Part shown: one piece after another, positions 17,969 to 54,550 of the stretch
How positions within the stretch are numbered: position 1 is the stretch's first letter
How the letters are laid out: every line of letters starts with the position of its first letter
Source of the DNA: Myxococcus stipitatus
GTDB lineage: Bacteria > Myxococcota > Myxococcia > Myxococcales > Myxococcaceae
Direction: 5' to 3'
Assembly: GCF_021412625.1 (NCBI RefSeq)
Contig: NZ_JAKCFI010000008.1
Location: 62,001-126,000, forward strand
Length of the DNA: 64,000 nt
Position numbers and translations under genes: made by a program
Notes under the pieces: model-generated
Told to the model about the DNA's origin: nothing
The model's input: only the letters and a program-made list of their open reading frames with translations
The model's database searches: none

Positions 17969-22432
<4,464 letters not shown>

Positions 22433-37561: not shown

Positions 37562-37567
37562 CCCACC

Positions 37568-39202: not shown

Positions 39203-39205
39203 CCC

Positions 39206-40432
39206 ATGGCAACGACAGCGCCCCAACTCGTTCCGGAATCGACGCCCGCGCCCGCCGAGACGGCCCAGGCGAAGCGCGGCAAGAAGGGCTTCGTCATCCT
39301 CGGCGCCGCGGTGGCCGCGCTGCTCGCGCTCATCGGCGGCTTCAAGGTCATCACCGCGGGGCAGGAGACCACCGACGACGCCCAGGTGGAGGCGGACGTG
39401 GTGCCGCTGGCCGCGCGCGTCTCCGGCCCCGTCATCCAGGTGGCCGTGGCGGACAACGCCACCGTGCACCAGGGGGACCTGCTGCTGCGCATCGACCCGC
39501 GCCCCTACGAGGCCCGCGTGAAGCAGGCGGAGGCGGAGCTGGAGTCCGCGCGCGCCCAGGCCGCGGCGGCGGACGCCCAGGCCACGGTGGCGGCGGCGGG
39601 CGCCAAGGGCGGGCTGACCTCCGCGAAGGCGCTCGTGTCCACCAGCGCGGCGGCCGTCGGCGGCGCCCAGGCCCAGGTGGCCAGCGCCCGCGCGGCGCTC
39701 ACGCGCGCGGAGGCCCAGGCCCGCAAGGCCGTGCTGGACCTGGAGCGCGCCCGGGGCCTGCGCGAGCAGAACGTCGTCTCCCAGAGCGCGCTCGACGACG
39801 CGCAGACGGCCCACGACACCGCGCAGGCCGCGCTGGAGGGCGCCCGCGCGCAGCTCACCGTGGCGGAGGAGGCCCGGCGCACGGCGGAGAGCAAGGTGGC
39901 GGAGGCCCAGGGCCAGCTCGACGTGAGCGCCCCCATCGACGAGAAGATCGCCGCCGCCCAGGCCAGCGCCGCGCTGGCGCACGCCCGGGTGAAGGGCGCG
40001 GAGGCCGCGCTGGAGCAGGCGAGGCTCCAGTTGGAGGACACGCGCGTCGTCGCCCCCTCGGACGGCCAGGTGTCCAAGCTGTCCGTGCACCCGGGCCAGC
40101 TGCTCTCCCCGGGCCAGTCCGTGGCGGAGCTGGTGCCGCTCACCACCTACGTGGTGGCCAACTTCAAGGAGACGCAGGTGGGCCACATGCAGCCCGGCCA
40201 GCGCGTGGACGTGAAGCTGGACGCCTACTCCGGCGAGGAGCTGGAGGGCACGGTGGAGAGCCTGTCCGGCGGCACCGGGGCGCGCTTCTCGCTGCTGCCC
40301 CCGGACAACGCCTCCGGCAACTTCGTGAAGGTGGTGCAGCGCGTGCCCGTGCGCATCGCCTGGAGCCACCCGCCCCGGAACCTGGCCCTGCGCGTGGGCC
40401 TGTCCGCCGAGGTCACCGTCCACACGCGGTAG
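39206..40432 (+). CDS. HlyD/EmrA-type membrane-fusion protein
   Basis: 408 residues. One N-terminal membrane anchor (GFVILGAAVAALLALIGGF) precedes a biotinyl-lipoyl domain (VVPLAARVSGPVIQVAVADNA, LLRIDPRPYEARVKQAE), a long alanine-rich coiled coil (about 110-270) and a beta-barrel part (VVAPSDGQVSKLSVHPGQLL). It bridges the EmrB transporter to an outer-membrane channel, which is not encoded here. It ends 22 bp from the convergent MocR gene. Confidence 0.92.
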   Translation: MATTAPQLVPESTPAPAETAQAKRGKKGFVILGAAVAALLALIGGFKVITAGQETTDDAQVEADVVPLAARVSGPVIQVAVADNATVHQGDLLLRIDPRPYEARVKQAEAELESARAQAAAADAQATVAAAGAKGGLTSAKALVSTSAAAVGGAQAQVASARAALTRAEAQARKAVLDLERARGLREQNVVSQSALDDAQTAHDTAQAALEGARAQLTVAEEARRTAESKVAEAQGQLDVSAPIDEKIAAAQASAALAHARVKGAEAALEQARLQLEDTRVVAPSDGQVSKLSVHPGQLLSPGQSVAELVPLTTYVVANFKETQVGHMQPGQRVDVKLDAYSGEELEGTVESLSGGTGARFSLLPPDNASGNFVKVVQRVPVRIAWSHPPRNLALRVGLSAEVTVHTR

Positions 40433-40454
40433 CAATCGCGGGGCGCGCGGCCCG

Positions 40455-41891
40455 TCACGACAGGCTGCGCGCCAGGCACCCCAGCGTGGACATGGCGCCC
40501 TCGAGGCGGGGCGACCACGGGTGTCCGCAGCTCAGGCGGATGCAGTGGCGGTAGGAGTCCGGCCGAGGCGAGAAGATGGGCCCGGGCGCGATGCTGATGC
40601 CCGCCTCCAGCGCGCGGGCGTGCAGCGCCAGCGAGTCCACCTGTCGAGGCAGCTCCACCCACAGCAGCGAGCTGCCCGAGGGCCGCGCCACCCGCGTGCC
40701 CTCCGGGAAGAACTCCGCCACCGCGTCCGCCATGCGCTCCACCTGGGACGCGAGCGCCCGCCGCAGCGCGCGCAGGTGCCGGTCGTAGCCGCCCTCCTCC
40801 AGGAAACGCGCGATGGCCAGCGGCGGCAGCGAGGGCGACGCCACGGTGTGCGCGAACTTGAGCAGCTCCAGCCGCTCGCGCCACCGGCCCGGCGCCGCGT
40901 AGCCCACGCGGAAGCCCGGCGCGAGCGTCTTGGAGAACGAGCCGCACAACAGCACGTTGCCCGTGGTGTCGAAGGACTTGCACGTGCGGGGGCGCTCCGG
41001 GCCGAAGTGCAGGTCTCCGTAGATGTCGTCCTCGATGAGGGGGATGCCCTTCGCCTCCAGCATCTCCACCAGCCGCCGCCGGTTCGCCTCCGGCATGCAG
41101 CTGCTCACCGGGTTGCTGAAGCTGGGCACCACCAGCACGGCGGCCACGCGGCGGCGCTCCACCGCGACCTCCAGCGCGTCCAGCTCCATGCCATGGCGCG
41201 GGCTGCACGGAATCTCCAGCACGCGCAGCCCCAGCGACTCGATGGCCTGGAGCGTGCCGTAATACGCGGGGGATTCGATGGCGATGGTGTCCCCGGGCCG
41301 CGCCACCGCGAGCAGGCACAGGTGGATGGCCTCCGCCGCGCCCACGGTGATGATGAAGTCGTCCGGCGACAGCGCCCCGCCCCAGTCGAGCGAGCGCCGC
41401 GCCAGCTGCAGCCGCAGCTCGGGACACCCCGGAGGCGGGTCGTACAGGAGCCCCTTCTCCTGGCACTCGCGGGTGAGCGTGTTCAGCTCGCGGAACAGCC
41501 GCCGCGTGGGCAGCAGCTCCGGCGAGGGCCACGCGCCGCCCAGCTGGACGATGCGCGGGTCCTGCATCGCCCGATAGACGTGGGCCACCAGCGCGCTGAC
41601 GGTGACGGGCGTGGCGGCCGGCGCGGGGCGCGTCACCAGGGGCTCGGCCAGCCGGGGCCGCTCGCGGCGGCGCACGTAGTGTCCGGACTGGGGGCGCGTC
41701 TCGATGAGGCCCACCGACTCCAGGTGCATGTACGCCTGGAGCACCGTGGAGATGCTCACCCGCTCACGCAGGCTGAGCTGGCGCACGGACGGCAGCCTGT
41801 CCCCCGCGCGAAGCGTGCCCGCGTCGATGGCGTCCTTCAGCCGGTCGGCCACCTGCTCGTACAGCTTCGGTCGATGCGCCAGCGCGCCCAT
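40455..41891 (-). CDS. MocR-type transcriptional regulator (GntR DNA-binding domain fused to aminotransferase)
   Basis: 478 residues. The start at 41891 is supported by GGGGAGG upstream. The first 75 residues form a GntR winged helix (YEQVADRLKDAIDAGTLRAGD, LPSVRQLS, STVLQAYMHLESVGLIE). The remainder is a fold-type I aminotransferase domain with the PLP lysine in CGSFSKTLAPGFRVGY and the GAAEAIHLCLLAVARPGD nucleotide-cofactor region. MocR proteins sense amino acids, pyridoxal phosphate or related ligands. It is divergent from the DUF2917 gene, an arrangement common for these regulators and their targets. Confidence 0.9.
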   Translation of the reverse strand: MGALAHRPKLYEQVADRLKDAIDAGTLRAGDRLPSVRQLSLRERVSISTVLQAYMHLESVGLIETRPQSGHYVRRRERPRLAEPLVTRPAPAATPVTVSALVAHVYRAMQDPRIVQLGGAWPSPELLPTRRLFRELNTLTRECQEKGLLYDPPPGCPELRLQLARRSLDWGGALSPDDFIITVGAAEAIHLCLLAVARPGDTIAIESPAYYGTLQAIESLGLRVLEIPCSPRHGMELDALEVAVERRRVAAVLVVPSFSNPVSSCMPEANRRRLVEMLEAKGIPLIEDDIYGDLHFGPERPRTCKSFDTTGNVLLCGSFSKTLAPGFRVGYAAPGRWRERLELLKFAHTVASPSLPPLAIARFLEEGGYDRHLRALRRALASQVERMADAVAEFFPEGTRVARPSGSSLLWVELPRQVDSLALHARALEAGISIAPGPIFSPRPDSYRHCIRLSCGHPWSPRLEGAMSTLGCLARSLS

Positions 41892-42087
41892 GCCGCCTCC
41901 CCGGGGAACCTCCACCGATGACCCCTATCGCTAATGGCCTCCCCACGCGTTTCACAGATACACCTGCCCGCGCCGGGGACCAGCACAGTTTCTCTCGTGT
42001 TCACTGTACCGGTCACAATGTCAGTTCGCTGCATCTGTTCCGTTCCCTCTCTGGAGCGCATGGTCCACGCCAGGAGGTCATGAGGTC
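41892..42087. promoter_or_regulatory. Divergent promoter region between mocR-type and DUF2917 genes
   Basis: This 196-bp spacer is less GC-rich than its surroundings and contains ACTGTACCGGTCACAATG (42003-42020), an imperfect dyad around ACCGGT that could be a MocR binding site. No clear -35/-10 pair could be picked for either gene. Confidence 0.3.
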
Positions 42088-42452: not shown

Positions 42453-42574
42453 AACATCGCCCGTCCTCCCGGTGTCGAGGTGTATCCGCCAACCAACAAC
42501 CTACCCCGGGGGGCTTCGTCGTCACGCGCGGAAGGGGCCTAGTCAGCGAGGCATCTCCTTTCCCGGAGCGCGTC

Positions 42575-43543
42575 ATGAAGACTCGGTTCACGGAACGCTT
42601 CCAACTGAAGTACCCCATCGTCTGCGCCCCCATGGCGATGGTCGCCGGAGGTGCCCTGGCGGGAGCGGTCAGCCGCGCGGGCGGGCTGGGCTTGATTGGA
42701 GGCGGCTATGGAGATCCGGAGTGGATCGCCCAGGAGCACGCCAACGCGGGGGGTGCGCCCGTGGGCGGCGGGCTCATCACCTGGATGCTCGAGAAGAACC
42801 CCGCCATCCTGGACGCGGCGCTGACACACCGACCGCGCGCCTTCATGTTGTCCTTCGGAGATCCCCGTCCCCATGCCGCGAAGGTCAAGGCCTCCGGCGC
42901 GGCCCTGCTATGCCAGATTCAACACCTCGGTCAGCTCGACCAGGCGCTGGAGGCGGGGGCGGAAGTCATCGTCGCGCAGAGCGGCGAGGCGGGTGGACAC
43001 GGGATGACCAACCGGTCCACCCTCACCTTCGTCCCCGAGGTCGCCGACATCCTCGCGAAGCGCTCGCCCGACACGCTGTTGCTCGCCGCCGGAGGCGTGG
43101 CCGATGGGCGCGGGTTGGCGGCGGTGCTGGCGATGGGCGCGGACGGCGCGCTGGTGGGCTCCCGCCTGTGGGCCAGCCGCGAGTCGCTGGCCCACGAGAA
43201 CTCCAAGGCCATGGCCGTCAGGCTGACCGGCGACGACACCGACCGCTCCATCGTCTTCGACATCCTGCGGGAGAAGGACTGGCCTCCCGGCTACACCTTC
43301 CGTGCACTCAAGAACAAGATGACCGAGCGCTGGTCGGGACGGGAGGACGAGCTGCTCGCCGTCGTGGAGGAGGAGCGCGCCACCTACCACGCCGCGATGG
43401 CCGCCGGCGACTACACCATCGGCCACAGCACCTGCGGACAGGTCGCCGGCTTGATACGGGACATTCCCAGCGCGGCGGAGATTCTTGAACAGATGGGCAG
43501 ACAAGCGGCCGAGGTGCTCGCACGGCTGGCCGGACCTATCTAA
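42575..43543 (+). CDS. Nitronate monooxygenase-type flavoprotein
   Basis: 322 residues. The TIM-barrel FMN-binding features are visible: YPIVCAPMAMVAGGALAGAVS, GGLGLIGGGYG, AQSGEAGGHG (catalytic histidine in the GGH motif), LLAAGGVADGRGL and GADGALVGSRLW. It oxidises propionate-3-nitronate or other alkyl nitronates. The start at 42575 has GGAG upstream; the in-frame extension to 42428 is not conserved-looking. It is followed by the alpha/beta hydrolase 50 bp later. Confidence 0.92.
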   Translation: MKTRFTERFQLKYPIVCAPMAMVAGGALAGAVSRAGGLGLIGGGYGDPEWIAQEHANAGGAPVGGGLITWMLEKNPAILDAALTHRPRAFMLSFGDPRPHAAKVKASGAALLCQIQHLGQLDQALEAGAEVIVAQSGEAGGHGMTNRSTLTFVPEVADILAKRSPDTLLLAAGGVADGRGLAAVLAMGADGALVGSRLWASRESLAHENSKAMAVRLTGDDTDRSIVFDILREKDWPPGYTFRALKNKMTERWSGREDELLAVVEEERATYHAAMAAGDYTIGHSTCGQVAGLIRDIPSAAEILEQMGRQAAEVLARLAGPI

Positions 43544-43593
43544 GCCCTCGCCGGGCGGAACTCGCTGTGAGCCCCGCCCCGCGCGGAGGGCTC

Positions 43594-44580
43594 ATGGTTC
43601 ACAAGGGCAAGTTGCTGACGGGGCTGGGACTGGTGGGGACTATCGCCTTCGCCCTGGGGTTCCGGAAGGACCGCCCCGCGAGGGAAGTCGAGGCACGGCG
43701 CGCGCCAGCGCCGCCCTCGCGGTTCATCGACGTCAACGGGGTGCGCACGCACTATCGCGACCAGGGCCAGGGCCCCGTCATCGTGCTGCTGCACGGCTCC
43801 AACGCGTCGCTGCACACCTGGAACGGCTGGGTGGAGGCGCTGTCGCCCCACTACCGGGTCATCACGGCGGACGTGCCCGGCCAGGGCGCCACCGGACCCG
43901 ACCCCATGCACCGCTACCGCTTCGAGGACGAGGTCGCCTGGCTGGATGCGTTCGTGCGCCAGCTCGGGCTGGAGCGCTTCACGCTCGGCGGCAACTCGAT
44001 GGGGGGCGGCATCTCCTGGCGCTACACCCTGCTCCACCCGGAGAAGGTGGAGCGGCTCATCCTCGTGAGCGCCTACGGCCTGCCCCGCGACGAGCACCTG
44101 CCCATCTACCTGCGCTTCTACGCGGTGCCCGGCCTGCGCCGCGTGGTGCGGTGGTACGCGCCCCGCTTCATGGTGCGACGGGCCGTGGAGGCGACGTATG
44201 GCGATCCGCGGCGCGTCACCCAGGCCAAGGTGGACCTCTACGAGGACATCCTCCTGCGCGAGGGGAACCGAGAGGCCACCTGGCGACGCTTCGCCGCCCA
44301 TGAGGACGACGACATGGAACAGCGGCTGGGGGAGATCCAGGTCCCCACCCTCATCCTCTGGGGCAGCGACGACACGTGGATCCTCCCCAAGTACGCGGAG
44401 AAGTTCCACTCCGCCATCCCCGACACCCGGCTGGTGATCTTCGACGGGCTGGGCCACGTCCTCATGGAGGAGGACCCGGCCAAGACGGTGGCCGTCGTCC
44501 AGGAGTTCCTCCGAGACACCGAGCCGGCCCACGCTGGCCGGCCCACCACCGCCTACGCCGATCTCCACCGGGAAGGCTAG
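43594..44580 (+). CDS. Membrane-anchored alpha/beta hydrolase
   Basis: 328 residues. The ATG at 43594 has GGAGGG three bases upstream and is preferred over a GTG at 43567. An N-terminal hydrophobic anchor (LLTGLGLVGTIAFALGF) precedes a complete hydrolase fold: oxyanion LLHGSNAS, nucleophile GGNSMGGG, acid WGSDDTW and base GLGHVLMEED. The substrate is unknown; a lipid or ester hydrolase is likely. Its stop overlaps the convergent gene by four bases. Confidence 0.88.
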   Translation: MVHKGKLLTGLGLVGTIAFALGFRKDRPAREVEARRAPAPPSRFIDVNGVRTHYRDQGQGPVIVLLHGSNASLHTWNGWVEALSPHYRVITADVPGQGATGPDPMHRYRFEDEVAWLDAFVRQLGLERFTLGGNSMGGGISWRYTLLHPEKVERLILVSAYGLPRDEHLPIYLRFYAVPGLRRVVRWYAPRFMVRRAVEATYGDPRRVTQAKVDLYEDILLREGNREATWRRFAAHEDDDMEQRLGEIQVPTLILWGSDDTWILPKYAEKFHSAIPDTRLVIFDGLGHVLMEEDPAKTVAVVQEFLRDTEPAHAGRPTTAYADLHREG

Positions 44581-45008
44581 CGACCCAAGGGGCCCGCGAG
44601 GAACCTCGCGACGGCCCGCGCCTGCTTGCGATTGCGCTTGGTGTCCACGGCCCGGCTGATGTCGCGCGGCACCTTGCTCAGGGTCTTCAAGCTGTCGCTC
44701 ATCGCCTTGCCGGTGTTGCGCATCACGTCCCGCAGCGCCCCATCCTTCTTCTTCTCCGCCGAGCGCTGCTCCTCCTTGCGATAGGTGCGCAGCCCGTCGG
44801 AGACGGCCGCGGAGAGGTGCTCCAGGGCCCGGCTCACGTTGTCGTGGCCCCGATCCAAGTTCTTCAGCCCCTTGCTCGACTTGCGCTTGCGCTTGCCCGG
44901 GAAGGTCTGCTCCACCGCCACTCCGGAGGCCACCATCTGCCCCCCCGCGGTGGCGCGCTCCACCGTCACATCCGTCTCGGTGATGCCTTCCTTGCCTTGA
45001 ATGCTCAT
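44577..45008 (-). CDS. Small basic protein, function unknown
   Basis: 143 residues, strongly basic (PGKRKRKSSKGLKNLDRG, KRNRKQARAVARFL), no signal peptide. It lies 30 bp downstream of the small protein at 45039 on the same strand and shares a short LKNL-K/D-RG element with it. DNA-, RNA- or membrane-surface binding is plausible from charge alone; no family was recognised. Confidence 0.6.
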   Translation of the reverse strand: MSIQGKEGITETDVTVERATAGGQMVASGVAVEQTFPGKRKRKSSKGLKNLDRGHDNVSRALEHLSAAVSDGLRTYRKEEQRSAEKKKDGALRDVMRNTGKAMSDSLKTLSKVPRDISRAVDTKRNRKQARAVARFLAGPLGR

Positions 45009-45038
45009 GGTCGGGGTTCCTTGTCTTCTTCTACGGGT

Positions 45039-45305
45039 TCACGGCATGAAGGGAGGGAGGAAGGGCAGCGACAGCCCGTTGCGGCTCTTGCGCCTCTTCT
45101 TCTCGTAGAGGAAGACGACCGGGACGAGCTGCTTGCCCGCGATGTCGTTCCCCATCCTCGCCTGGATTTCGTTCAGGGCCTCGTTCACCTCGAGCATCAG
45201 CGAACCCTTGCCGCGCTTGAGGTTCTTGAGCTTCTTTCGCTGCTGCTTGCCCAGGTCGATGACGAGGGGAAGAGAGCTGAGCAGGTATTGTTGTTCGACT
45301 GCCAT
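45039..45305 (-). CDS. Small basic protein resembling DUF6200-type proteins
   Basis: 88 residues. The pattern PLVIDLGKQQRKKLKNLKRGKGSLM followed by VVFLYEKKRRK resembles small proteins annotated DUF6200, recalled here rather than searched. Function unknown. It lies 49 bp after the UbiB-like gene and could be the tail of the biosynthetic operon. Confidence 0.6.
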   Translation of the reverse strand: MAVEQQYLLSSLPLVIDLGKQQRKKLKNLKRGKGSLMLEVNEALNEIQARMGNDIAGKQLVPVVFLYEKKRRKSRNGLSLPFLPPFMP

Positions 45306-45354
45306 GTGGTGTGCTCCTTGCGAGGTTCCATGTGGCGCGCCCCGGGTGGCGCGG

Positions 45355-47352
45355 TCAGAGCGCGGTGCGTGTGCCCGCCTCCCGGTCCTTGTCGGAGAGT
45401 CGGAAGCTGAGTCCCCGGAGCGTCACCACCACGGCGACGGCGACGGCCCCCAGGAACAAGGGGTTGAGGAACGTCTGGCTCCACGCGGAGCCCGACAGCA
45501 GCTCCGCGCCGAGGGCCTCCCGCGCGCTTCGACCCTGTCGGGTGACGCCCAGCAGGGCCGCGACGCAGCGGACCGCCAGCGCGCCCACCAACAGCCAGGC
45601 CCCGGCCCGCAGCAGCTGGGACAACACGAAGGAGAGCAGCCGCTCCGTCACCGCGAAGCGGTAGGTGGACGAGTCGAGGAAGCGCTGGAGCCGGTAGAAG
45701 CCCGTCACGGCCGCCTCGTAGAACTGTTCGTAGCGGATGAACGAGCGGTCCTCGGTGAGGTTGGCCAACCGCTTCTCCAACCTCCGGCGCATCCGCCGCC
45801 CGAGCTGGACCTCGTATCGGCGGTACTCGCGGTAGTGGTCGATGCGCGGGTCCAACCGCGCCGCCAGGCTGTCGGACAGCATGGTGGAGCGAATCATCCG
45901 CAGGGTGTTCAGGTTCATCGGCACCCGGTACTCCTGGGCCAGCTTGAAGAAGCCGATCCACAGGTTGGCGGACGTGCGCTCCCACCAGCGCGAGGTGCGG
46001 CTCTTGTTGGCGTACAGGTCCTGCCAGAAGATGCCCTCCAGCTTGCGGGAGAACTCCTCCACGTCCACGGAAGGCAGCGGCTCCAGCAACGCCAGCACCG
46101 CGGCCACCATGCGGCCGACATCCTCGTTCGCCTGCGCGTCGGCGATCTCCCGCCACACCCGCCGCTCGCGCGCGGTGAAGGCGCCGCAGGAGCCGAAGTC
46201 GATGAGCACCAGCTTGCTGTCCGGCTGGACCACCACGTTCGCCGGGTGGAGGTCCGCGTGGAAGAAGAGGCCCTCCTGCGCGCACAGGCGGGCAATCTTC
46301 AGCAGCCTGCGCGCCACCTTGCGCGGGACGATGCCCAGCTCGGCCAGCCGGCGCAGTCCCTCCTCGTCCTGGCGCTCGGCCGCGGAGATGAGGTCCTTGA
46401 GCCAGACACCGGAGACGAACTCAGAGACCAGCACCTCGTGGTTGGAGAGGTCGCCGTAGACGCCCGGCGAGCGCGCGAAGCGCTGCCCCAGCCGGCGCAT
46501 CCGGTCCTGGAAGAGCTCCGTGTAGCGGGCCTCGCGGACGAAATCGAGCTCCTCGTAGAGCATGGTGCTCAGCTCGTAGAGAAGCTGGCGCGAATAGCCG
46601 GGCGGGATGAGCCACAGCTCCGCGAGCCAGAGGATCCACCCCAGCGCGCGCATGTCCGCGGCGAAGAGCGCCCCCACCCCAGGCCGGCGGACCTTCACCG
46701 CCACCCGCTCCCCGCCATGGAGCACGCCCCGGTAGACACACGCGACCGACCCGGAGCCGACCGGCTCCTCGCTCAGCTCGGCGAACACCTCCTGGAGCGG
46801 ACGGCGGACGGCCCGCTCCACCAGCACCCTCACCTGCGTGAAGGGGATGGGCGGCGCGGCGTCCAGCATCTTCTCCAGCTCCTGGGCCACCGGGTACGGC
46901 AACAAGTCGACCCGGATGGCCAGTTGCTGGCCCAGCTTTATCCACGTCCCTCCGGCCCGCTCGATGAGCCGCCGCAGGTGCACGGCCCGCGACTGGAGCG
47001 AGTCGCGCCGCCGGAGGATGTCCCCGGCGATTCTCACCAGGAGCCAGAGCGCGCCGAAGAGCCAGACGCCGAGCTGGAGCAACGTCCGCCCGATGCCGGC
47101 GCGGTACACCTCCGCCTCCCGCACCTGGGGCGTGGGCGGCGCGTCCCGGGCTCGCGCCCGGAGCACCTGCCCCAGCTCCCGCGCGGCCTCGACGCGCGAG
47201 GGGTGTGCCTCGCGCTCGCGCTCGCGCCAGCGTCGGAGCGCGGCCTCCACTCTGCGCTCGCGCGGGTCTGGCGGAGCGCCCGCCGTGGGCGCCCCCGCCT
47301 CGCCCGGCCGCGGCTGCTCCGCCGGTGACTCGACCTTCCGGAGCGTGCTCAC
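45355..47352 (-). CDS. UbiB/ABC1/AarF-family atypical kinase
   Basis: 665 residues. The family markers are present: the KxGQ motif in GGTWIKLGQQLAIRVD, the alanine-type nucleotide loop PVGSGSVACVYRGVL, AVKVRRPGV, and the catalytic HADLHPANVVV and VLIDFGSCGAF. Two or more C-terminal membrane segments anchor it. UbiB proteins support lipid-soluble quinone or isoprenoid metabolism. A 4-bp overlap with the carrier-protein gene places it in the biosynthetic operon, which is an unusual context and suggests a lipophilic product or substrate. Confidence 0.9.
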   Translation of the reverse strand: MSTLRKVESPAEQPRPGEAGAPTAGAPPDPRERRVEAALRRWREREREAHPSRVEAARELGQVLRARARDAPPTPQVREAEVYRAGIGRTLLQLGVWLFGALWLLVRIAGDILRRRDSLQSRAVHLRRLIERAGGTWIKLGQQLAIRVDLLPYPVAQELEKMLDAAPPIPFTQVRVLVERAVRRPLQEVFAELSEEPVGSGSVACVYRGVLHGGERVAVKVRRPGVGALFAADMRALGWILWLAELWLIPPGYSRQLLYELSTMLYEELDFVREARYTELFQDRMRRLGQRFARSPGVYGDLSNHEVLVSEFVSGVWLKDLISAAERQDEEGLRRLAELGIVPRKVARRLLKIARLCAQEGLFFHADLHPANVVVQPDSKLVLIDFGSCGAFTARERRVWREIADAQANEDVGRMVAAVLALLEPLPSVDVEEFSRKLEGIFWQDLYANKSRTSRWWERTSANLWIGFFKLAQEYRVPMNLNTLRMIRSTMLSDSLAARLDPRIDHYREYRRYEVQLGRRMRRRLEKRLANLTEDRSFIRYEQFYEAAVTGFYRLQRFLDSSTYRFAVTERLLSFVLSQLLRAGAWLLVGALAVRCVAALLGVTRQGRSAREALGAELLSGSAWSQTFLNPLFLGAVAVAVVVTLRGLSFRLSDKDREAGTRTAL

Positions 47353-47615
47353 GCCGCGGCGCCGCGCAGGGACAGGGACGAGACGGTGGACTCCAGCGTC
47401 GCGGGGGAGTGAAACGTCTCCGCGGTGAGGAGCTCGTCCGGAAAGGAGATGTCGAAGGCGCCCTCGAGCGCCAGCATCAGGTTGATGGCGCTCATCGAAT
47501 CCAGCCCCATCTCGCTGAGCGGGCGAGACATCTCCACGGGCTCGCCAGGCGCCACCCGGGGCAGGAACTCGCGCAGCACCTCGACGAGCCGGGTCCTCAT
47601 CTCTTCTGTCGTCAT
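47349..47615 (-). CDS. Acyl carrier protein
   Basis: 88 residues from MTTEEMRTRL. The phosphopantetheine serine is in SEMGLDSMSAINLMLALE. It overlaps both neighbours by four bases, so translation is coupled with the decarboxylase and the UbiB-like kinase. It should carry the acyl or aminoacyl group loaded by the adjacent AMP-ligase. Confidence 0.93.
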   Translation of the reverse strand: MTTEEMRTRLVEVLREFLPRVAPGEPVEMSRPLSEMGLDSMSAINLMLALEGAFDISFPDELLTAETFHSPATLESTVSSLSLRGAAA

Positions 47616-48892
47616 CGTGCGTCCTCCCAGCCAGGCGGCCGCGCGGGGGCGGGCCGCTCGTACAGCGCGTGCCCCCAGCGCAGCCGGTACACCGCGGTCA
47701 CCTCGCCCTCCCGGTGCACCAGCTCCACCGGCGGCGGGCGACTCAAGAAGCCTGTGAGACTGGCGGTCAGCCCGTAGGCGCCGACATTGGGGATGAAGAC
47801 CCGGTCTCCCGGCCGCAGCGGCGGCAGGGCGACATTGCGCGCGAAGCAGTCCAGCGGCGTGCACAGCGGCCCCACCACGTTGACCTCCTCGAGCGCGCCC
47901 GACACCGGCTCCGCGCGCGCGACCCCCACGCCCACCAACGGCACCCTCCCGAGCCCGGACATCCCGCCCAGATGATGGATGCCGCTGTCGAGGACGACGT
48001 AGCGCTTGCCCTTGGAGCGCTTGACGTCCACCACCGTCGCCCAGAGCGTCCCAGAGGAGCCACACAGCCACCTGCCAGACTCGAACCAGAGCGCGGCGGA
48101 CGCGGTCCGCTCGCGGCTGGCGGACAACAGCGCGAGCGGCTCGCGCAAGGTGGACACGTCCAGGCCCGCGCCCGCGGCGGCGAAGGGCCAGGGGAAGCCG
48201 CCCCCCACGTCCATGACCTGGAAGCGTGTCCCCAGGACCTCTGAGAGCGACTCGCCCACCGCGAGCGCCTGGCGCACCGCCGCGAGCAGGGAGTTCGCGT
48301 CCGTCAACTGCGTTCCCTGATACACGTGCAGCCCCATCAGCTCGACATGCCCCAGCGCGGCCAGCCGCGCCCGGCCGTCGACCAGGTCCGCCTCGTCGAA
48401 GCCGAACTGGCTGCTCACCCCGCTCATCGCCAACCGGGCCACCGGGGGCGCGCTCGGGTTGACCCGCAGGAGCACCCGGGCGCGCAGCCGCGCCGCCCGC
48501 GCGACGCGGTCGATGCGCTCCAGGTCCGGCCACGACTCGGCGGAGAAGCCCGTCACGCCGGCGGCCAGCGCCGCGTGGACCTCCTCCGCGCTCTTGCCCG
48601 GCCCCGTATAGAGCACGCGCTCGGGTGGGAAGCCGGCCTCGAGCGCCACCGCCAGCTCCCCCGGCGACGACACCTCCGCGTCACACCCGAGCCGCTGGAG
48701 CAGCCGGGCGATGTCCGGCAACGGATTGGCCTTGAGCGAGAACAGCAGCCGGCTGCCCTCCGGCAGCGCGGCTCGCAGCTCCAGGGCGCGCCGCTCCACC
48801 TCGCCCGAATCATAGACATACAAGGGCGAGCCGTACGTCTCCAGCCACGCCGCGGCCCGCGCCGCCTCCCGGGCCAGGACCGGCGCGCTCAT
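47612..48892 (-). CDS. PLP-dependent decarboxylase, fold type III (ornithine/DAP decarboxylase family)
   Basis: 426 residues starting at 48892. The PLP lysine lies in LFSLKANPLPDIARLL, with HVYQGTQL, the phosphate-binding MDVGGGFPWP, the active-site GPLCTPLDCFARN and NVGAYGLTAS. It decarboxylates an amino acid, possibly in a carrier-bound form. Sequence order and gene context resemble the decarboxylase of exosortase A polysaccharide loci. It overlaps the ligase and carrier-protein genes by four bases on each side. Confidence 0.92.
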   Translation of the reverse strand: MSAPVLAREAARAAAWLETYGSPLYVYDSGEVERRALELRAALPEGSRLLFSLKANPLPDIARLLQRLGCDAEVSSPGELAVALEAGFPPERVLYTGPGKSAEEVHAALAAGVTGFSAESWPDLERIDRVARAARLRARVLLRVNPSAPPVARLAMSGVSSQFGFDEADLVDGRARLAALGHVELMGLHVYQGTQLTDANSLLAAVRQALAVGESLSEVLGTRFQVMDVGGGFPWPFAAAGAGLDVSTLREPLALLSASRERTASAALWFESGRWLCGSSGTLWATVVDVKRSKGKRYVVLDSGIHHLGGMSGLGRVPLVGVGVARAEPVSGALEEVNVVGPLCTPLDCFARNVALPPLRPGDRVFIPNVGAYGLTASLTGFLSRPPPVELVHREGEVTAVYRLRWGHALYERPAPARPPGWEDAR

Positions 48893-50433
48893 GACCGCCC
48901 CCCTCGCTCCACCCAGGTGGACAGCGCGGCGCGGTCCAGCTTCCCGTTGGGAGTCCGGGGCAGCTCCGGCACCCAGTGCACCCGGTCCGGCACCTTGTGG
49001 GCCTCCAGTCGACTGGCGAGCGCGTCGAGCACGCCCGCTTCCCGTCCCGGTGGCGCGTCCGGCCCTCCCGTCGCGGTGACGAACAGGTGCAGCCGGTCCG
49101 AGTCCGCCTCCTGCACCACGCCCGCCTCGGCCACGCCAGGCAGCGCGCAGGCCACGTCCTCGATTTCCAGCGGGTGCAGGCGGAAGCCCCGGCGCTTGAG
49201 GAGGAAGTCCTTGCGGCCCACGAACTGGAGGAAGCCCTCCGCGTCCATGCGGAACAGGTCGCCGGAGTACAGCACCCGGCCCAGCCCCCGCGGATGGAGC
49301 CGGTAGCGCAGCGCGGTCTCCTCCGGCGCCCCCCAGTACCCCAGCGCGACGTGGCGGCCCTGGATGACCAGCTCCCCCACCTCCCCGGGCGGCAGCTCGC
49401 GGCCCTCCTCGTCGAGAATCATCGCCTCCGTGCCGGGCAGCGCGCGCCCCACCGACCCCGGATGCGCCTCCACCTCCTCGGGAAGGAGGATGGAGACGCG
49501 CTTGCATTCGGTCAGTCCATACATCGGGAACACCGCGACGCCCGGCAGCCGCTGGCGCAGCAAGGCCACGTGGCCGGACGGGAGGTGGGCGCCGGTGTTG
49601 GTGAGCGCGCGCAGCCGGAGTCCTCCCGCGCCCCTCCGCTCCAGCAGCTTGAGCAGCGCCGCGAAGAGGGTGGGGACACCGGGCAGGACGGTGACGCGCT
49701 GACGCTCCAGCGTGGTGACCAGCGCCGGGCCCGCCAGCTCCGCTCCGCCGACGAAGACGGTTGCCCCCACCTGCGCGGCGAGGAATACCTGATACAGCCC
49801 GTAGTCGAAGGAGAGCGGGAGGAAGACGCCCACCACGTCCTCGCGCGTGTACTGGAGCCGCGCCTGGATGGCGGCGACCACGAACAGGATGTTGTCGTGG
49901 CTGAGCGTCACCCCACGCGGCGCGCCCGTGGAGCCGGAGGTGTAGACGAGGCAGACGGGGTCCACGTCCACGCCCGTGAACGGCGGACACTCGGCCCGCC
50001 CGGTCTCCAATATCCGCTCCAGGCCGTGGCCGGTGGCGGGCACCGCGCCGCCGCCCACCCAGACGATGGGCACACCCTCGAAGGCGGAGGCCAGGTGCGC
50101 GGTGCTCTCGTCCAGGAAGGCGACGGCGGGAGTCACCTGCGCGAGGATCCTCCGCAGCCCCGCCTCGCGCAGCCCGCCGTGCAGCACGGTGAAGGCCCCG
50201 CCGATGCGCGCCGTCGCGAACGCGGCCAGCGCCACCTCCACGCGGTTGCGGGTGAGGATGACGGCGCGGTCTCCTCGCCGCAGGCCCTGGCCCGCGAGCC
50301 ACCCACCGAGGCGGCGGCTGGCGGACGCCAGCTCGACGTAGGTGAAGCAGGTCCGCTCGTCCCGGAGGAACGGGCGGTCCCCATGCAGGCGCGCGGCGTC
50401 GTCCAGCAGGCTGCCGAGGTGTCGCGGGTCCAT
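48889..50433 (-). CDS. AMP-forming acyl/aminoacyl ligase
   Basis: 514 residues. All adenylation motifs are present: CLVYTSGSTGAPRGVTLSH, PMYGLTECKR, VLYSGDLFRMDAEGFLQFVGRKD and the catalytic lysine in RTPNGKLDR. It most likely adenylates an acid and loads it on the carrier protein encoded two genes later. Its stop overlaps the decarboxylase start, and it follows the fusion gene by 15 bp. The substrate is unknown. Confidence 0.93.
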   Translation of the reverse strand: MDPRHLGSLLDDAARLHGDRPFLRDERTCFTYVELASASRRLGGWLAGQGLRRGDRAVILTRNRVEVALAAFATARIGGAFTVLHGGLREAGLRRILAQVTPAVAFLDESTAHLASAFEGVPIVWVGGGAVPATGHGLERILETGRAECPPFTGVDVDPVCLVYTSGSTGAPRGVTLSHDNILFVVAAIQARLQYTREDVVGVFLPLSFDYGLYQVFLAAQVGATVFVGGAELAGPALVTTLERQRVTVLPGVPTLFAALLKLLERRGAGGLRLRALTNTGAHLPSGHVALLRQRLPGVAVFPMYGLTECKRVSILLPEEVEAHPGSVGRALPGTEAMILDEEGRELPPGEVGELVIQGRHVALGYWGAPEETALRYRLHPRGLGRVLYSGDLFRMDAEGFLQFVGRKDFLLKRRGFRLHPLEIEDVACALPGVAEAGVVQEADSDRLHLFVTATGGPDAPPGREAGVLDALASRLEAHKVPDRVHWVPELPRTPNGKLDRAALSTWVERGGRS

Positions 50434-50448
50434 GAGAGGCGCGCTCCG

Positions 50449-53373
50449 TCAGGCCAGCCGGTCGTCGGTGAAGATCTCCTTCTTCACCATGAACCGCGTC
50501 GTCTTGGACAGGATGCGCTCGTTGAAGGCGATGCGCTCCGGGTGGGCGAGCAGCTCGTTGCGCAGCTTCAACGGCTCGGGCAACCCGACGTCCTTGTAGA
50601 TTTCCGGGTTGTAGAACTTCTGCATCGACGTGAGCATGAAGCGCTTGAGCGCGCGCTCCACGTCCCGCAACCGCTCCACGCCGTGCCGGGCCCTCAGGCC
50701 CTGGTGGAGCCGCTCGATGTTCAGCCGCCCGTAGGTGATGTGGCGCGTCTCGTCCGAGTGGTGCAGCCGGTTGATTTCACGCACGAACGGCGGCAGCCGC
50801 GCGTCCTTGCCCATCTGGCTGTTGTAGATATCGACGATCTCCTCGAACACCAGCACCGTGGCGAACGCCAGGAACTCCTTGATGTCTGGCTCGGGGAAGG
50901 CGTCGTAACGGATGCGGCGGTCCTTGTATATCTTTCCGCCGTACGTCAGGCAGAACCGCGAGAAGTACCACATGTGCTCGTTCTCCTCGAGCACCAGGTG
51001 GTGGAGGTACTCCGAGGACTGCTCGTAGCCGGGGGTGTGCATCCGGCTGATCATCTCCGTGAGCAGCTCGCGGATGCCCGTCACGTTCAGGCTGAAGAAG
51101 TTGATGCACTCCCACTTGCTGAGCGCCAGCAATTGCCGGGGCGTCAGCTTCTCCGCCCAGGGCGTGCCATGCACGGACAGCAGCTCCGGGCTCATCCAGT
51201 GCTGGTCCTCCGGCAGCGACTTCTCCCAGACCAGGTCCCGGAAGGGATTGGACGGGTCGGCGTTGGAGAGCTGGATGAGCCGGTCGAGGGTGCGGGAGAA
51301 CCCCTCCTCGCTCGTCGGCTCCACCGGACGGGCTCGGGACGGCGCCTGCTGAACGAATTCCTCGATCATGGTGGCAATCCCTTCGTCATAGAAATGGGAG
51401 AAGTGGTCGGCGGACGGGTGGAGGACGGTCCGAGCGTCGGCGAGACGGCGAGCGAGCGAGGCCACCTGGTCCGGATGCGAGATGAGGTCCGCGCCCCCGC
51501 CGTGGACGAGCACCGGCTGCTTCACCGAGGACGTCCACGCGTCGTCGCGCTCGCGGAACAGCGCGCAGACCATGTGCGCGTAGCGGAAGAGGCTGGTGGG
51601 GGAGCGGAACGGAACGCTCGTCATGTAGAGCAGGTGCGGGTCCGTGGACGTGAGGACGCTGGCCACCACCTTGCGGTCCTCGCTCTGGGGCGCGCCGCTG
51701 GCGGTGTCGCCCCCGAAGATGAGCTTGCAGTAGCGCTCCGCCACGCGTGGGTTCGCGGCGATCTGGGGAAAGAGCCGCCGCAGGTTCTTCTCGAACGCGG
51801 TGAGCGGGTGGTCCGGCGCGGGCGGCAGGGACACCGTCCCATTGAGGATGACCCCTCGCGCGAAGCGCGCCGGGTGCTCGGCGAGGGCCCGCAGGGCCAC
51901 CTGCGCGCCGCTGCTCCAGCCCACCACCGCCTCCACCCGTTGGATTCCCAGCCGGTCGAGGACGGCGATCAAGTCCTCCACGTGCACCCCGGAGTCGCAG
52001 CGGGCGGGGTCGAAGTCCGGCGTCGGCGTGGGCAGCCAGCGGGTGTTCCACGTCACCACGCGCCAGCGCTGGGCCAGCCGCTGCGCGAGTGGCGCCAGGA
52101 ACTCCTCCGGCATCGCGTACGCGTTGCACAGGACCAGCACCGGGTGGGACGGGTCCCCGCGTGTGAAGGCACACACCTCCGCGCCGTCGGCCGCGCGCAC
52201 CTGGACCGGGGTGAAGGTGTCGCCGGAGCGCTCCCGCGCCAGCTCCGCGAGGAAGCTGGCCAGATAGACATCCAGGTCCGCGAAGGTGAGCGGGGGGTGC
52301 GGTGGGAGGGCGCGGGCGAAGCGCTTCGGGTTCAGGCCATAGCTGGCATAGAAGGCCCCGCGCAGGTCGAAGAGCTCCTCGATGGGCGTCGCCTCCGTCT
52401 CGCGCCGGGTGGTGAAGCGCAGGATGGGCAGCTCGAGGATGGTGGCGAGCTTGTCGACCAGCCCCGCGGCCGGCAGCTCCACGGGCCCCACCAGGTGGTG
52501 GAAGGGCCCACCCTCGAAGCCCGTGGCGCTCAGCCGGAGCATGTCCTGCACCACGTGGTCCACCGGGACCAGGTTGATGCCCGCGCCCTCGTCGCCCAGC
52601 ACCCGCAGCGGGTCCGTGACCTGGGCCAGCCCGTCTCGCAGCCGGTACAGCTCCCGGACGAAACCGTAGAGCCCGAACCGCGTCCCACCGCTGCGCCGGG
52701 TGGCGCTGGGGCCGACGATGACCGAGGGACGCAGGATGCTGTAGTCCCGCCCCTCCTCCGCGCACAGGCGCGCGACGTCCCGCTCCGCCTCCGCCTTGCT
52801 CTCCTCGTAGTAGTTGTTGAAGGCGCCGTCTCCCGGCGCCTCCGGGTGCGCCGCCTCCGGTATCACCCCTCGCCGGGTCCCCGCGGTGTAGGCCGTGGAG
52901 ACGTAGATGAAGCGGCGAGCCCCCGCGCGCGACGCGACGGCCAGGACGTTCCGCGTCCCCACGCAATTGTGCGCATGTATCTTCCGGCGGTGGCGGTCCT
53001 CGTACGACAGGCTCGCCGCCGAATGCCAGACTTCATCGAGCCGCGCCTCGGCGAGCAATGTCAGCTCATCCGGGGAGAGCCCACAGTGTGGCAGGGTGAT
53101 GTCACCTTTCAAACACGTGACCCGCTCCTCGAAGGCGTCCACGGGGACGGGGACGTCATACGACGCCGCGCTGAGGGCGAGTGACTCCAGGAGTCGGGCC
53201 CGCGCCTGCTCCGTGGACTTGCCTCGGACGAGGGCGTAGACGTGCCCGCCGCCCATCAACCGCCAGAGGAGGAAGTGGCTGCCCAGGAACCCCGTGCCTC
53301 CCGTGAGGAACAACCGCGTGGGACGAACCGCGCGTTCGCCGAGTTCAAAAGGGTTTCCGTAGGATGCGCTCAA
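50449..53373 (-). CDS. Three-domain fusion: thioester-reductase-like SDR, alpha/beta hydrolase, AurF-like diiron oxygenase
   Basis: 974 residues from a TTG start at 53373. Residues 20-340 are a thioester-reductase-type SDR: TGGTGFLG (24-31), YVSTAY, Tyr189-x3-Lys193. Residues 385-650 are an alpha/beta hydrolase with the nucleophile Ser487 in GWSSG and a late HFSHF histidine. Residues 690-960 form a helical diiron domain with two (D/E)ExxH motifs, E796-E797-N-E-H800 and D874-E875-T-R-H878, as in AurF-type N-oxygenases. It should reduce or release a carrier-bound intermediate and oxidise an amine or C-H bond. First gene of the operon. Confidence 0.86.
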   Translation of the reverse strand: MSASYGNPFELGERAVRPTRLFLTGGTGFLGSHFLLWRLMGGGHVYALVRGKSTEQARARLLESLALSAASYDVPVPVDAFEERVTCLKGDITLPHCGLSPDELTLLAEARLDEVWHSAASLSYEDRHRRKIHAHNCVGTRNVLAVASRAGARRFIYVSTAYTAGTRRGVIPEAAHPEAPGDGAFNNYYEESKAEAERDVARLCAEEGRDYSILRPSVIVGPSATRRSGGTRFGLYGFVRELYRLRDGLAQVTDPLRVLGDEGAGINLVPVDHVVQDMLRLSATGFEGGPFHHLVGPVELPAAGLVDKLATILELPILRFTTRRETEATPIEELFDLRGAFYASYGLNPKRFARALPPHPPLTFADLDVYLASFLAELARERSGDTFTPVQVRAADGAEVCAFTRGDPSHPVLVLCNAYAMPEEFLAPLAQRLAQRWRVVTWNTRWLPTPTPDFDPARCDSGVHVEDLIAVLDRLGIQRVEAVVGWSSGAQVALRALAEHPARFARGVILNGTVSLPPAPDHPLTAFEKNLRRLFPQIAANPRVAERYCKLIFGGDTASGAPQSEDRKVVASVLTSTDPHLLYMTSVPFRSPTSLFRYAHMVCALFRERDDAWTSSVKQPVLVHGGGADLISHPDQVASLARRLADARTVLHPSADHFSHFYDEGIATMIEEFVQQAPSRARPVEPTSEEGFSRTLDRLIQLSNADPSNPFRDLVWEKSLPEDQHWMSPELLSVHGTPWAEKLTPRQLLALSKWECINFFSLNVTGIRELLTEMISRMHTPGYEQSSEYLHHLVLEENEHMWYFSRFCLTYGGKIYKDRRIRYDAFPEPDIKEFLAFATVLVFEEIVDIYNSQMGKDARLPPFVREINRLHHSDETRHITYGRLNIERLHQGLRARHGVERLRDVERALKRFMLTSMQKFYNPEIYKDVGLPEPLKLRNELLAHPERIAFNERILSKTTRFMVKKEIFTDDRLA

Positions 53374-53415
53374 GGCCAGTCCCCCCCGGGGGTGGTCGCC
53401 ACTGCGGGCTGAAAC

Positions 53416-53599: not shown

Positions 53600-54550
53600 T
53601 CACGTGGACAGTCGGGCTTCGTCCACTCCGCGACGCGTGCCGTGCGCCCCGAGCACGAACACCGCGCCCACGGCGAGCAGCACCAGCGACAGCAGCGGGC
53701 CGCTCTCGAATTGATACGAAAACGGCAGATTCGGGTCGGGCTCGCGGAACCACTGCCCCAGCGCGGAGCCCACGCCGGTCAGGACGAAGAACAGTCCGGT
53801 GGGCATCCCCACCGCGCGCGTCCACGCGCGTCCGCGAAGCAGCAGCAAGAACACGAACGGCGCCAGCCCCTCCAGCACGGCCTGGTAGAGCAACACCGGG
53901 TGACGTGGTGGGAGGACGCGTGCGAGCTCCTCCCCGAGGGACGGCACCTCTCGCGCCAGCTTCACCACCTCATGGCCGGGCGCGCCCGCCAGCTCGCCCA
54001 GCGCGAGCGTGGGCGTGGCCACGGGCTGGAAGCCCGGCGTGCCCAGCTCCGCGGGGAAGCGCAGCGCCCACGGCACGTCCGACACCCGTCCCACGGGCGC
54101 GCCCTCGGTGAACACCGCGAGGTGCCCGAGCAACAGCCCCAGGGGCGCGAGCACCGCCAACGCGTCCATCACCTCCAACCAGGGACGCTGGCGCTCCCGC
54201 GCGTGGTACGCCGCGTAGAGCGTCACGCCCAGGATGGCCCCCAGCAGGGACATCCCGGCCTGCTGGAACCCGCCGAGGAGGGTGCCGTCCTGGGAGGCGC
54301 CGTCCCACTGGTGCAGCAGCATGTCCCCCGCGCGGCCTCCCAGCATCACGCCGAAGAGGCCCGCGAAGAGGACGAAGCCCGCCACCTCCTCCCTCGCGAA
54401 GGGTCCCTCGCCGCGAGCGGCGCGCCGTCGCAGGAGGACGAACGCGAGCAGCAGCCCCACGAGGCACGCGGCTCCCGTCCAGCGCAGGGAGAGCGACTCG
54501 GAGAGGTGGAACACCTGGGGACTCAGCGAGTGGAGGAGCTGGGAGTGCAC
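53600..54550 (-). CDS. Degenerate Lgt-like (prolipoprotein diacylglyceryl transferase family) membrane protein
   Basis: 316 residues with about seven membrane segments from a GTG start at 54550 (GAGG upstream). The overall pattern is Lgt: SLSLRWTGAACLVGLLLA, GGRAGDMLLH, HPVLLYQAV and the FREPD motif. Key residues of the active enzyme are missing: the histidine of the FHGG motif is replaced (GMSLLGA) and the GRxGN-type arginine and asparagine region reads GHLAVFTEG. It is probably catalytically inactive or has changed function. It ends an operon of two small exported proteins and may act on or export them. Confidence 0.8.
   Translation of the reverse strand: MHSQLLHSLSPQVFHLSESLSLRWTGAACLVGLLLAFVLLRRRAARGEGPFAREEVAGFVLFAGLFGVMLGGRAGDMLLHQWDGASQDGTLLGGFQQAGMSLLGAILGVTLYAAYHARERQRPWLEVMDALAVLAPLGLLLGHLAVFTEGAPVGRVSDVPWALRFPAELGTPGFQPVATPTLALGELAGAPGHEVVKLAREVPSLGEELARVLPPRHPVLLYQAVLEGLAPFVFLLLLRGRAWTRAVGMPTGLFFVLTGVGSALGQWFREPDPNLPFSYQFESGPLLSLVLLAVGAVFVLGAHGTRRGVDEARLST

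Follow-up and report, generated by a model that had tools for sequence, protein, structure and literature searches.

The locus described here raises the question of what a bacterium makes with a compact operon in which an AMP-forming ligase, a pyridoxal phosphate (PLP) decarboxylase and a stand-alone carrier protein are encoded beside a fusion of a reductase, a hydrolase and a diiron domain. The operon lies in a 64,000-nucleotide stretch of Myxococcus stipitatus (the window), positions 62001 to 126000 of contig 8 in a 10.1-Mb genome of 47 contigs; its G+C content is uniform, at 0.68-0.73 per 4-kb step. A sequence-only reading had taken the ligase, decarboxylase and carrier for an exosortase-type trio at the centre of a pathway to a small lipophilic metabolite. 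We propose, with a probability of about 0.55, that the operon belongs to a mobile module which makes a small N-oxygenated metabolite from a carrier-held acidic amino acid in the six steps set out below. The outline of the sequence-only reading is thereby kept, whereas its exosortase link is given up.

The nine-gene block and the quartet in other genera

Re-reading of the open reading frames (ORFs) and domains confirmed the five genes that had been described on the minus strand at 45355-53373, with a 15-bp gap between fusion and ligase followed by three 4-bp overlaps. The domains also agreed: NAD_binding_4 reductase, alpha/beta hydrolase and AurF in the fusion, then AMP-ligase, fold-type-III PLP decarboxylase, carrier and ABC1/UbiB protein. 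However, a five-gene unit was too narrow, as it missed a gene of the nitronate monooxygenase (NMO) family, a second hydrolase, DUF6200 and DUF6312. The block has the following features.

50449..53373, minus strand: three-domain fusion with a TTG start, from Pfam matches, reductase motifs and the GWSSG nucleophile motif of its alpha/beta hydrolase; common to five Myxococcus genomes
Domains of the fusion: NAD_binding_4, residues 23-277 (132 bits); alpha/beta hydrolase, residues 413-662 (43 bits); AurF PF11583, residues 693-962
48889..50433, minus strand: AMP-forming ligase with pocket D210/K311/R312 (PF00501/PF13193; best solved relative 3wvn)
47612..48892, minus strand: PLP fold-type-III decarboxylase (PF02784/PF00278; BtrK the best match)
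47349..47615, minus strand: stand-alone acyl/aminoacyl carrier protein, LGLDSM phosphopantetheine site (PF00550, 38.2 bits)
45355..47352, minus strand: UbiB/ABC1-family atypical kinase-like membrane protein with KLGQ, HADLHP and DFG (PF03109, 166 bits)
45039..45305, minus strand: DUF6200 small protein (PF19702, 49.3 bits)
44577..45008, minus strand: DUF6312 small basic protein (PF19831, 40.3 bits)
43567..44580, plus strand: second alpha/beta hydrolase, convergent (PF00561, 120 bits)
42575..43543, plus strand: NMO-family flavoprotein (PF03060, 120.9 bits against a cut-off of 28)

The minus-strand order is fusion, ligase, decarboxylase, carrier, UbiB-like, DUF6200 and DUF6312, with 49 bp between the UbiB-like and DUF6200 genes and 30 bp between DUF6200 and DUF6312. 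The NMO-family gene and, 23 bp further on, the hydrolase converge on the operon from the plus strand, and the hydrolase end overlaps DUF6312 by 4 bp. For the NMO gene the ATG at 42575 was chosen over a longer GTG ORF from 42428. Three ORFs were rejected. The true carrier is the last 88 codons of a 394-aa ORF at 47349-48533, the remainder of which is an out-of-frame extension. A minus-strand ORF at 43540-44568, which might pass for a downstream operon gene, is a shadow of the plus-strand hydrolase, and an ORF at 48553-48819 has no family match and lies in another frame inside the decarboxylase.

The diiron domain (five-row profile, E <= 1e-30) was found in five of 96 genomes of the family, and these five belong to the window's genus (5/27, its own included). 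Named carriers are Myxococcus eversor and M. llanfairpwllgwyngyllgogerychwyrndrobwllllantysiliogogogochensis, the latter only to the contig end. The four other carrier genomes show the five genes in the same order and with the same three-domain fusion, so that the arrangement is not due to chance. Gene order is kept in the complete loci (window, G056, G061 and G071); G062 has the block in two parts, on a contig that ends inside the decarboxylase and on another that holds the NMO and DUF6312 genes. The second hydrolase is present, at 65-67% identity, in the three other Myxococcus loci examined that far. The NMO gene (E <= 1e-50) occurs in exactly the same five of 27 genomes as the oxygenase, which is not an independent test of co-occurrence, because both genes lie in one block; the evidence is the block's boundary. 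Comparison of window positions 30000-64000 with the other loci by blastn (E <= 1e-20) revealed similarity only from 42562-42575 to 53338-53382. The other loci share further flanking DNA among themselves, unlike the window, and none of 16 window flank ORFs had a tblastn match at 1e-10 in the relatives' loci, except ORFs overlapping the block; these flank comparisons covered 8-20 kb. The sharp common boundary and the unlike flanks therefore suggest that the block 42575-53373, NMO and hydrolase genes included, sits elsewhere in the window's genome than in its relatives, and either moved or was retained as a single unit.

The oxygenase, ligase, decarboxylase and carrier genes (the quartet) also stand together in Okeania, Roholtiella and Marinobacter, so that the module occurs in four genera of three phyla. 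Identities to the window proteins across those genera are 52-54% for the oxygenase, 44-49% for the ligase and 48-49% for the decarboxylase. The quartet proteins form one supported group in the oxygenase tree (99/98, with a Nostoc plasmid protein inside), the ligase tree (99/98) and the decarboxylase tree (100/99 on ten rows only, three of them outsiders). All three trees part Myxococcus from the other three genera; Okeania and Roholtiella are sisters for the ligase and decarboxylase, an order that the oxygenase tree leaves open. We read the three genes as co-inherited in the quartet genera. The quartet is rare, being found in one of 386 sampled genomes of the phylum of the Roholtiella genome and one of 398 of that of Marinobacter, each time the starting genome. 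The genomes G343 and G124 of the first phylum and G585 of the second have only a relative of another type, with a gene resembling aminoacyl-tRNA synthetases (aaRS).

Where Myxococcus has release genes, the other three genera (Okeania, Roholtiella and Marinobacter) encode a synthetase of 1337-1348 aa with condensation, adenylation, carrier and thioesterase domains.

L011, 14061-18077: quartet-side synthetase
L012, 4894-8907: quartet-side synthetase
L013, 13907-17953: quartet-side synthetase

The condensation domains carry the motifs DLLFLDGSS, DLLFLDGTS and DLMLFDGSA, which we take to be a heterocyclisation pattern, and the adenylation motifs are presumably cysteine-like. These synthetases would predict a thiazoline bearing the quartet's acyl unit. 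Because a synthetase replaces the release genes in three genera, this acyl unit looks like a transferable building block, either passed on to the synthetase or, in Myxococcus, reduced off. A protein of 274-304 aa is conserved beside the quartet in Roholtiella (L012 9086-9910) and Marinobacter (L013 17866-18780); its start is hydrophobic and signal-peptide-like by eye, and Pfam gave no match for either protein.

Ligase, decarboxylase and carrier protein

Among solved structures the ligase comes closest to 3wvn (286 bits), which we take to be VinN. Alignment to 3wvn showed that the ligase retains the aspartate of SFDYG and the KR of TECKR (D210, K311 and R312), presumably the positions that bind the substrate in VinN. 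These pocket columns were read from an alignment of 18 ligases. Lysine and arginine occur together in 12 of them, namely all eight quartet ligases, all three others partnered by a decarboxylase and one Sinorhizobium ligase; one of the three adjoins a methylaspartate mutase. The pair is missing from all five adenylation enzymes of the nonribosomal peptide synthetase (NRPS) type and from an Azospirillum ligase of a polysaccharide locus. The decarboxylase has BtrK as its top PDB match (220 bits), 68 bits ahead of a diaminopimelate decarboxylase (152 bits), and the PDB names BtrK an L-glutamyl-[BtrI acyl-carrier protein] decarboxylase. SLKANP presumably holds the PLP lysine and GPLC the catalytic cysteine. 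Hence an AMP-ligase with an acidic-amino-acid pocket, an adjacent fold-III PLP decarboxylase and a stand-alone carrier are present as in VinN/VinO/VinL, given the presumed residue roles, and a VinN/VinO/VinL- and BtrK-like trio is a better reading than an exosortase-type one.

According to PMC11284099, VinN loads 3-methylaspartate onto VinL, VinO decarboxylates it on the carrier, and FlvN takes aspartate. The Myxococcus trio resembles the VinN-VinO-VinL and FlvN systems of the macrolactams vicenistatin and fluvirucin, as well as BtrK-BtrI of butirosin, in that an amino-dicarboxylic acid would be loaded on a stand-alone carrier and decarboxylated there by a PLP enzyme; with the VinN and FlvN systems it further shares the enzyme families and the D/K/R pocket. 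In contrast to these systems, the Myxococcus block has no polyketide synthase, aminoacyl-protecting ligase or acyltransferase, and has instead an N-oxygenase-type domain, a thioester reductase and an NMO-family protein.

The decarboxylase would allow either aspartate or glutamate, and aspartate is preferred because of the ligase comparison. If the same trio loaded glutamate, a gamma-aminobutyrate unit would arise on the carrier, as with BtrK/BtrI in butirosin, and the product would be a C4 homologue. The closest solved decarboxylase, BtrK, does act on a glutamyl-carrier; on the other hand the ligase is nearest to 3wvn, presumably VinN, it shares D/K/R with the ligase beside a methylaspartate mutase, and the butirosin ligase belongs to another fold class. 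We regard glutamate as an improbable choice, though one that deserves some weight.

The ligase and decarboxylase do belong to the same enzyme superfamilies as the exosortase A-associated pair, and TIGR03098 and TIGR03099 are their best-scoring NCBIfam models. However, both fall below the cut-offs (336.2 against 592.35 bits and 276.3 against 478.45 bits). Similarly low scores (273/592 and 260/478) were obtained for a Kitasatospora plasmid pair, which is probably of the vicenistatin type, because a methylaspartate mutase adjoins it. The Marinobacter pair and one Streptomyces pair are likewise far below both cut-offs, and the Sinorhizobium ligase comes nearer that of TIGR03098 (468/592). The exosortase family PF09721 was unmatched in all five operon-carrying Myxococcus genomes, in agreement with the statement that the locus lacks an exosortase; matches in four of the ten genomes searched show that the search was working. 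In Okeania, Roholtiella and Marinobacter the matches lie on contigs other than the quartet's, so that the linkage in relatives that would have spoken for an exosortase system was not found. Four exosortase-locus stretches from the genomes of L013 and L014 gave no tblastn match (1e-6) to the ligase or decarboxylase; the trees contain no exosortase trio members. We therefore read "exosortase-type" as simply the nearest curated name.

That the operon decorates a polysaccharide or lipid, as the exosortase A trio does, seems very improbable. Besides the nearest curated names, this idea could draw on the Azospirillum ligase of the wider family, which sits in a glycosyltransferase locus, but that enzyme is without the D/K pair. 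The scores far under the cut-offs and the five genomes without an exosortase match argue against it, as does the block itself, in which no sugar genes were found, just as the sequence-only reading had said.

On two Streptomyces plasmid stretches (L070 and L082), genes for a ligase, a decarboxylase and a carrier stand next to acyl-CoA dehydrogenase genes; the ligases have the same D/K/R pocket, and neither stretch gave a match to the diiron oxygenase. By their gene content these trios are a further use of the trio.

The diiron domain and its gene company

The third domain of the fusion matches PF11583 (AurF) at 109.5 bits against a cut-off of 29.6. The seven ligand positions, which are the glutamate in WE, glutamate and histidine of EENEH, glutamate of FEEIVD, and histidine, glutamate and histidine of HHSDETRH, are all present in the window and in 18 of the other 19 aligned rows, and the Agrobacterium sequence, the remaining row, shows the same motifs. 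According to a preprint (PMC12154687), six ligands are common to the family, the seventh histidine is characteristic of N-oxygenases, and the products are nitroso, nitro or nitronate compounds. An AlphaFold model of the domain was built from five sequences in five versions. The predicted fold matched CmlI (Z 18.9, 248 residues, 3.3 Å) and AurF (Z 18.3), ahead of all other proteins (13.6 at most), and Foldseek also placed AurF first. Comparison of the predicted fold thus settles the assignment of the domain to the AurF/CmlI-like family.

The domain might alternatively functionalise C-H bonds, as a hydroxylase, desaturase or CylC-like halogenase on a carrier-bound acyl chain. According to PMC8406957, CylC-type halogenases are slightly similar to N-oxygenases and often stand beside ligase and acyl carrier protein (ACP) genes, and an NMO gene occurs in three of 95 classified cyanobacterial CylC-homologue clusters. 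However, the seventh histidine, the reported hallmark of N-oxygenases, is present, AurF and CmlI lead the structural matches by about 5 Z units (CylC being outside this comparison), and the partner genes would deliver an amine. We consider C-H chemistry unlikely.

A tree built from 20 diiron proteins places the window's domain in a near clade, separated with 100/100 support from four distant plasmid proteins. The near clade comprises 13 lineages: Myxococcus, Okeania, Roholtiella, Marinobacter, the Nostoc plasmid, Tistrella, two Streptomyces plasmids, Agrobacterium, Azospirillum, G343, G124 and G585. The flanks inspected were 10-12 kb for the near-clade plasmid loci and 12 kb for the four distant loci. 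Loci of one genome (L010/L033; L009/L032) were counted once. Plasmid matches H6/H76 (a second Agrobacterium record), H79 (a second Pseudonocardia record), H82, H84, H85 and Photobacterium H12 were left out.

A carrier-like stand-alone ORF lies nearby in 12 of the 13 lineages. Support by Pfam, annotation or clear similarity is strong in seven (Myxococcus, Okeania, Roholtiella, Marinobacter, both Streptomyces and Azospirillum). The Tistrella and Agrobacterium ORFs were assigned by similarity to better-supported carriers, and those of G343, G124 and G585 by length and motif only, with one weak match in addition for G585; Pfam gave no match for the ORFs of Tistrella, Agrobacterium, G343 and G585. 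Nostoc is the sole lineage without such an ORF, and an NRPS fragment is found there. An aaRS-like gene accompanies the oxygenase in seven lineages (Tistrella, both Streptomyces, Agrobacterium, G343, G124 and G585), an NMO gene in four (Myxococcus, Tistrella, one Streptomyces and Agrobacterium) and a reductase with NAD_binding_4 as best Pfam family in three (Myxococcus, G343 and G585). Such reductase genes thus recur with the oxygenase in two unrelated genomes (loci L085 and L037). The Agrobacterium short-chain dehydrogenase/reductase gene was not counted as a reductase, since Epimerase is its best family and NAD_binding_4 is weak, nor was that of Tistrella, a short-chain dehydrogenase. For the distant clade, annotation and tblastn (1e-3) in 12-kb flanks revealed no carrier, NMO or aaRS-like gene at any of the four annotated loci; L075, a distant oxygenase in an unannotated record, is outside this count.

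At L085 (G585) and L037 (G343) a small protein with weak ferritin-like (rubrerythrin or COQ7) similarity is encoded in one run with the oxygenase, the carrier-like ORF, the aaRS-like gene and the NAD_binding_4 reductase. Within the oxygenase-NMO-aaRS-like run of Agrobacterium lies a gene of the FlK type, the fluoroacetyl-CoA-specific thioesterase family (L067 12716-13099).

He and Ryan (2021) reportedly, by their title, deal with glycine-nitronate pathways, and relatives of the window oxygenase with a carrier and, in several cases, an NMO gene fit that title. The likeness to these and to the enteromycin/akazaoxime type is a diiron oxygenase on a carrier-bound amino acid, and for the latter type PMC9967187 proposes that the oxygenase converts the amine of carrier-bound glycine to an aldoxime or, with a methyltransferase, to an O-methyl nitronate. 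The glycine-nitronate-like cassettes seen here carry an aaRS-like gene beside the carrier. No tRNA-synthetase family is among the Pfam matches of the nine Myxococcus genes, which thus lack such a carrier-loading ligase; there the amine would instead arise by decarboxylation on the carrier, and the NMO belongs to another subgroup.

The reductase domain has the Rossmann motif TGGTGFLG and a YxxxK motif as YEESK. Its best solved relative is MxaA (67.6 bits), and TIGR01746 stays below its cut-off (99/213). With these motifs and its similarity to release domains, it is taken for a thioester reductase, and its fusion to the oxygenase suggests that an oxidised, reactive acyl group is handed straight to release. 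The Ham/Pvf cluster of valdiazen and fragin offers a parallel in its adenylation-thiolation-reductase (A-T-R) loading, its reductive release and its AurF-family N-oxygenase on a tethered amino acid; as described in PMC5878181 and PMC11659414, HamC with HamD (A-T-R) oxidises tethered valine and the reductase domain frees the product. The Ham/Pvf system differs in holding valine on one NRPS-like protein and in having no decarboxylase. Conversely, no likeness to the other ham genes (cupin, heme-oxygenase-like, cyclase) is among the Pfam matches of the Myxococcus block.

Proposed pathway and accessory proteins

Gene content, motifs, homologies and shared inheritance are observations; from them we infer the kind of steps 1 to 4, the substrate, the order of steps 2 and 3, the oxidation level, the form of release and step 5. 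In step 1 the ligase would adenylate an amino-dicarboxylic acid, most likely L-aspartate, at its side-chain carboxylate and load it onto the stand-alone carrier. In step 2 the PLP decarboxylase would strip the alpha-carboxylate on the carrier to give beta-alanyl-ACP. In step 3 the fused diiron domain would oxidise the freed amine to a hydroxylamine and then to an oxime or a nitronate/nitro group; decarboxylation is expected to come first, because a free amine is needed. In step 4 the fused reductase would free the acyl group as an aldehyde or alcohol, while the hydrolase domain would proofread or offer another way of release. Step 5 would be denitrification or self-protection, with the nitronate or the released product as the target of the NMO-family flavoenzyme and of the second hydrolase; the NMO would destroy the nitronate (to nitrite and a carbonyl compound) or protect the cell. 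In step 6, which is a guess, the UbiB-like, DUF6200 and DUF6312 proteins would assist at the membrane. Steps 1 to 4 are preferred as the most economical account in which each well-identified gene has a role. The carrier-based logic of the sequence-only reading (loading, modification, oxidation and release by a reductase) thus stays the likeliest one in view of motifs, homologies and gene content. Its lipophilic product has no direct support, the UbiB-like membrane protein being the sole hint.

Several observations weigh against this pathway. The Sinorhizobium ligase has the K/R pair and no decarboxylase match within 7 kb; therefore, the pair does not strictly imply decarboxylation. Sequence cannot decide between aspartate and glutamate as the loaded acid. 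The distant, carrier-less clade also has the metal ligands, which therefore mark the family, not the substrate, and are no proof of a carrier-bound one. The confidence of the five structural models varied (mean pLDDT from 81.6 for the best to 51.8 for the worst), the Foldseek match was modest (E 2.4e-4, TM about 0.6), identity to AurF and CmlI in the structural alignment is only 12-13%, and a sequence-profile search of the PDB set with the diiron domain missed both. The NRPS versions of the quartet have no NMO match. The NMO of the window shares no more than 26-33% identity with those of the aaRS-type cassettes, which cluster together, and FabK structures head its list at 115 bits, above a putative nitroalkane dioxygenase (94 bits) and PA1024 (79 bits).

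The assignment of this last protein to PF03060 is safe; its nitronate function is putative. It might be a FabK-like enoyl reductase or a quinone reductase with no relation to nitronate, an alternative we think possible and hold with clear reserve. Apart from the FabK structures, it is favoured by TIGR03151 (FabK), the best NCBIfam model, although at 141/453 far below its cut-off. Against this, the NMO gene moves with the operon as part of one block, no dehydratase-type family is among the Pfam matches of the block proteins, and three other lineages pair the oxygenase with an NMO gene. Moreover, 33 of 40 listed plasmid homologues, out of 167 records, are annotated as nitronate monooxygenase, which is a database label only. 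In Myxococcus eversor a second, partial NMO-like stretch lies between the NMO and hydrolase genes (L009 19847-20211).

A more specific version of the proposed pathway, which we offer tentatively, is that carrier-bound aspartate becomes a three-carbon nitro or nitronate unit of the 3-nitropropanoyl-ACP class. After decarboxylation on the carrier and diiron oxidation to the nitronate, this unit would be released reductively as a nitro aldehyde or alcohol, or denitrified by the module's own NMO; in the cyanobacteria and Marinobacter it would be joined to cysteine by the synthetase (heterocyclisation, adenylation, carrier and thioesterase domains). If true, this route would add a decarboxylated acidic amino acid to the substrates of carrier-bound nitronate chemistry, for which glycine is the precedent.

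The module as proposed would unite two characterised chemistries, decarboxylation of an acidic amino acid on a carrier and N-oxidation of carrier-bound amines, in a new combination, and a literature search of partial coverage found no product for it. It would offer a short route to aliphatic nitro or oxime building blocks and give "exosortase-type" ligase-decarboxylase genes a use outside polysaccharide loci. In addition, the DUF6200, DUF6312 and UbiB-like proteins gain a genetic context in metabolite clusters.

The UbiB-like protein matches the wider ABC1 family PF03109 and falls below the ubiquinone-biosynthesis model TIGR01982 (193.6/487.55 bits). Elsewhere in the family, relatives of DUF6200, DUF6312 and UbiB stand in that order five more times: in G070, G072, G036 and G014, and at a second site in G061. 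A search of the window's phylum for DUF6312 matched ten of 193 genomes; over 349 genomes of the phylum to which the Marinobacter genome belongs, neither DUF6312 nor the controls gave a match, so that this zero does not speak for absence. At the three triplet loci viewed over 20 kb (L055-L057), a frame of about 2470-2490 codons with adenylation-domain similarity lies downstream. These long NRPS-like frames tie the triplet to metabolite clusters, not to the N-oxidation chemistry of the Myxococcus operon. A resemblance of the three proteins to the UbiB-UbiJ-UbiK helper set is a guess, and a literature search on DUF6312 found nothing. The triplet lies at about 8000-10500 of L055, L056 and L057; further loci are L049, L054 and L058, and at L058 no UbiB match was found beside the DUF6200/DUF6312 pair. 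The kinase motifs of the L055 UbiB-like protein appear degenerate by eye.

Directly upstream of the operon, at 53600-54550 on the minus strand, the window encodes a homologue of prolipoprotein diacylglyceryl transferase (99/119 bits for TIGR00544; above the cut-off of PF01790), which was not found at the relatives' operon loci. On the other side, at 36941-41915, a TetR regulator, an exporter of the major facilitator superfamily and a HlyD-like membrane fusion protein follow one another, a possible efflux unit, and then a GntR/aminotransferase-type regulator on the opposite strand. Farther away on the plus strand are a 1487-aa protein that combines glycosyl hydrolase family 3 and F5/8 type C domains (17969-22432) and a 997-aa CHAT-domain protein (5809-8802).

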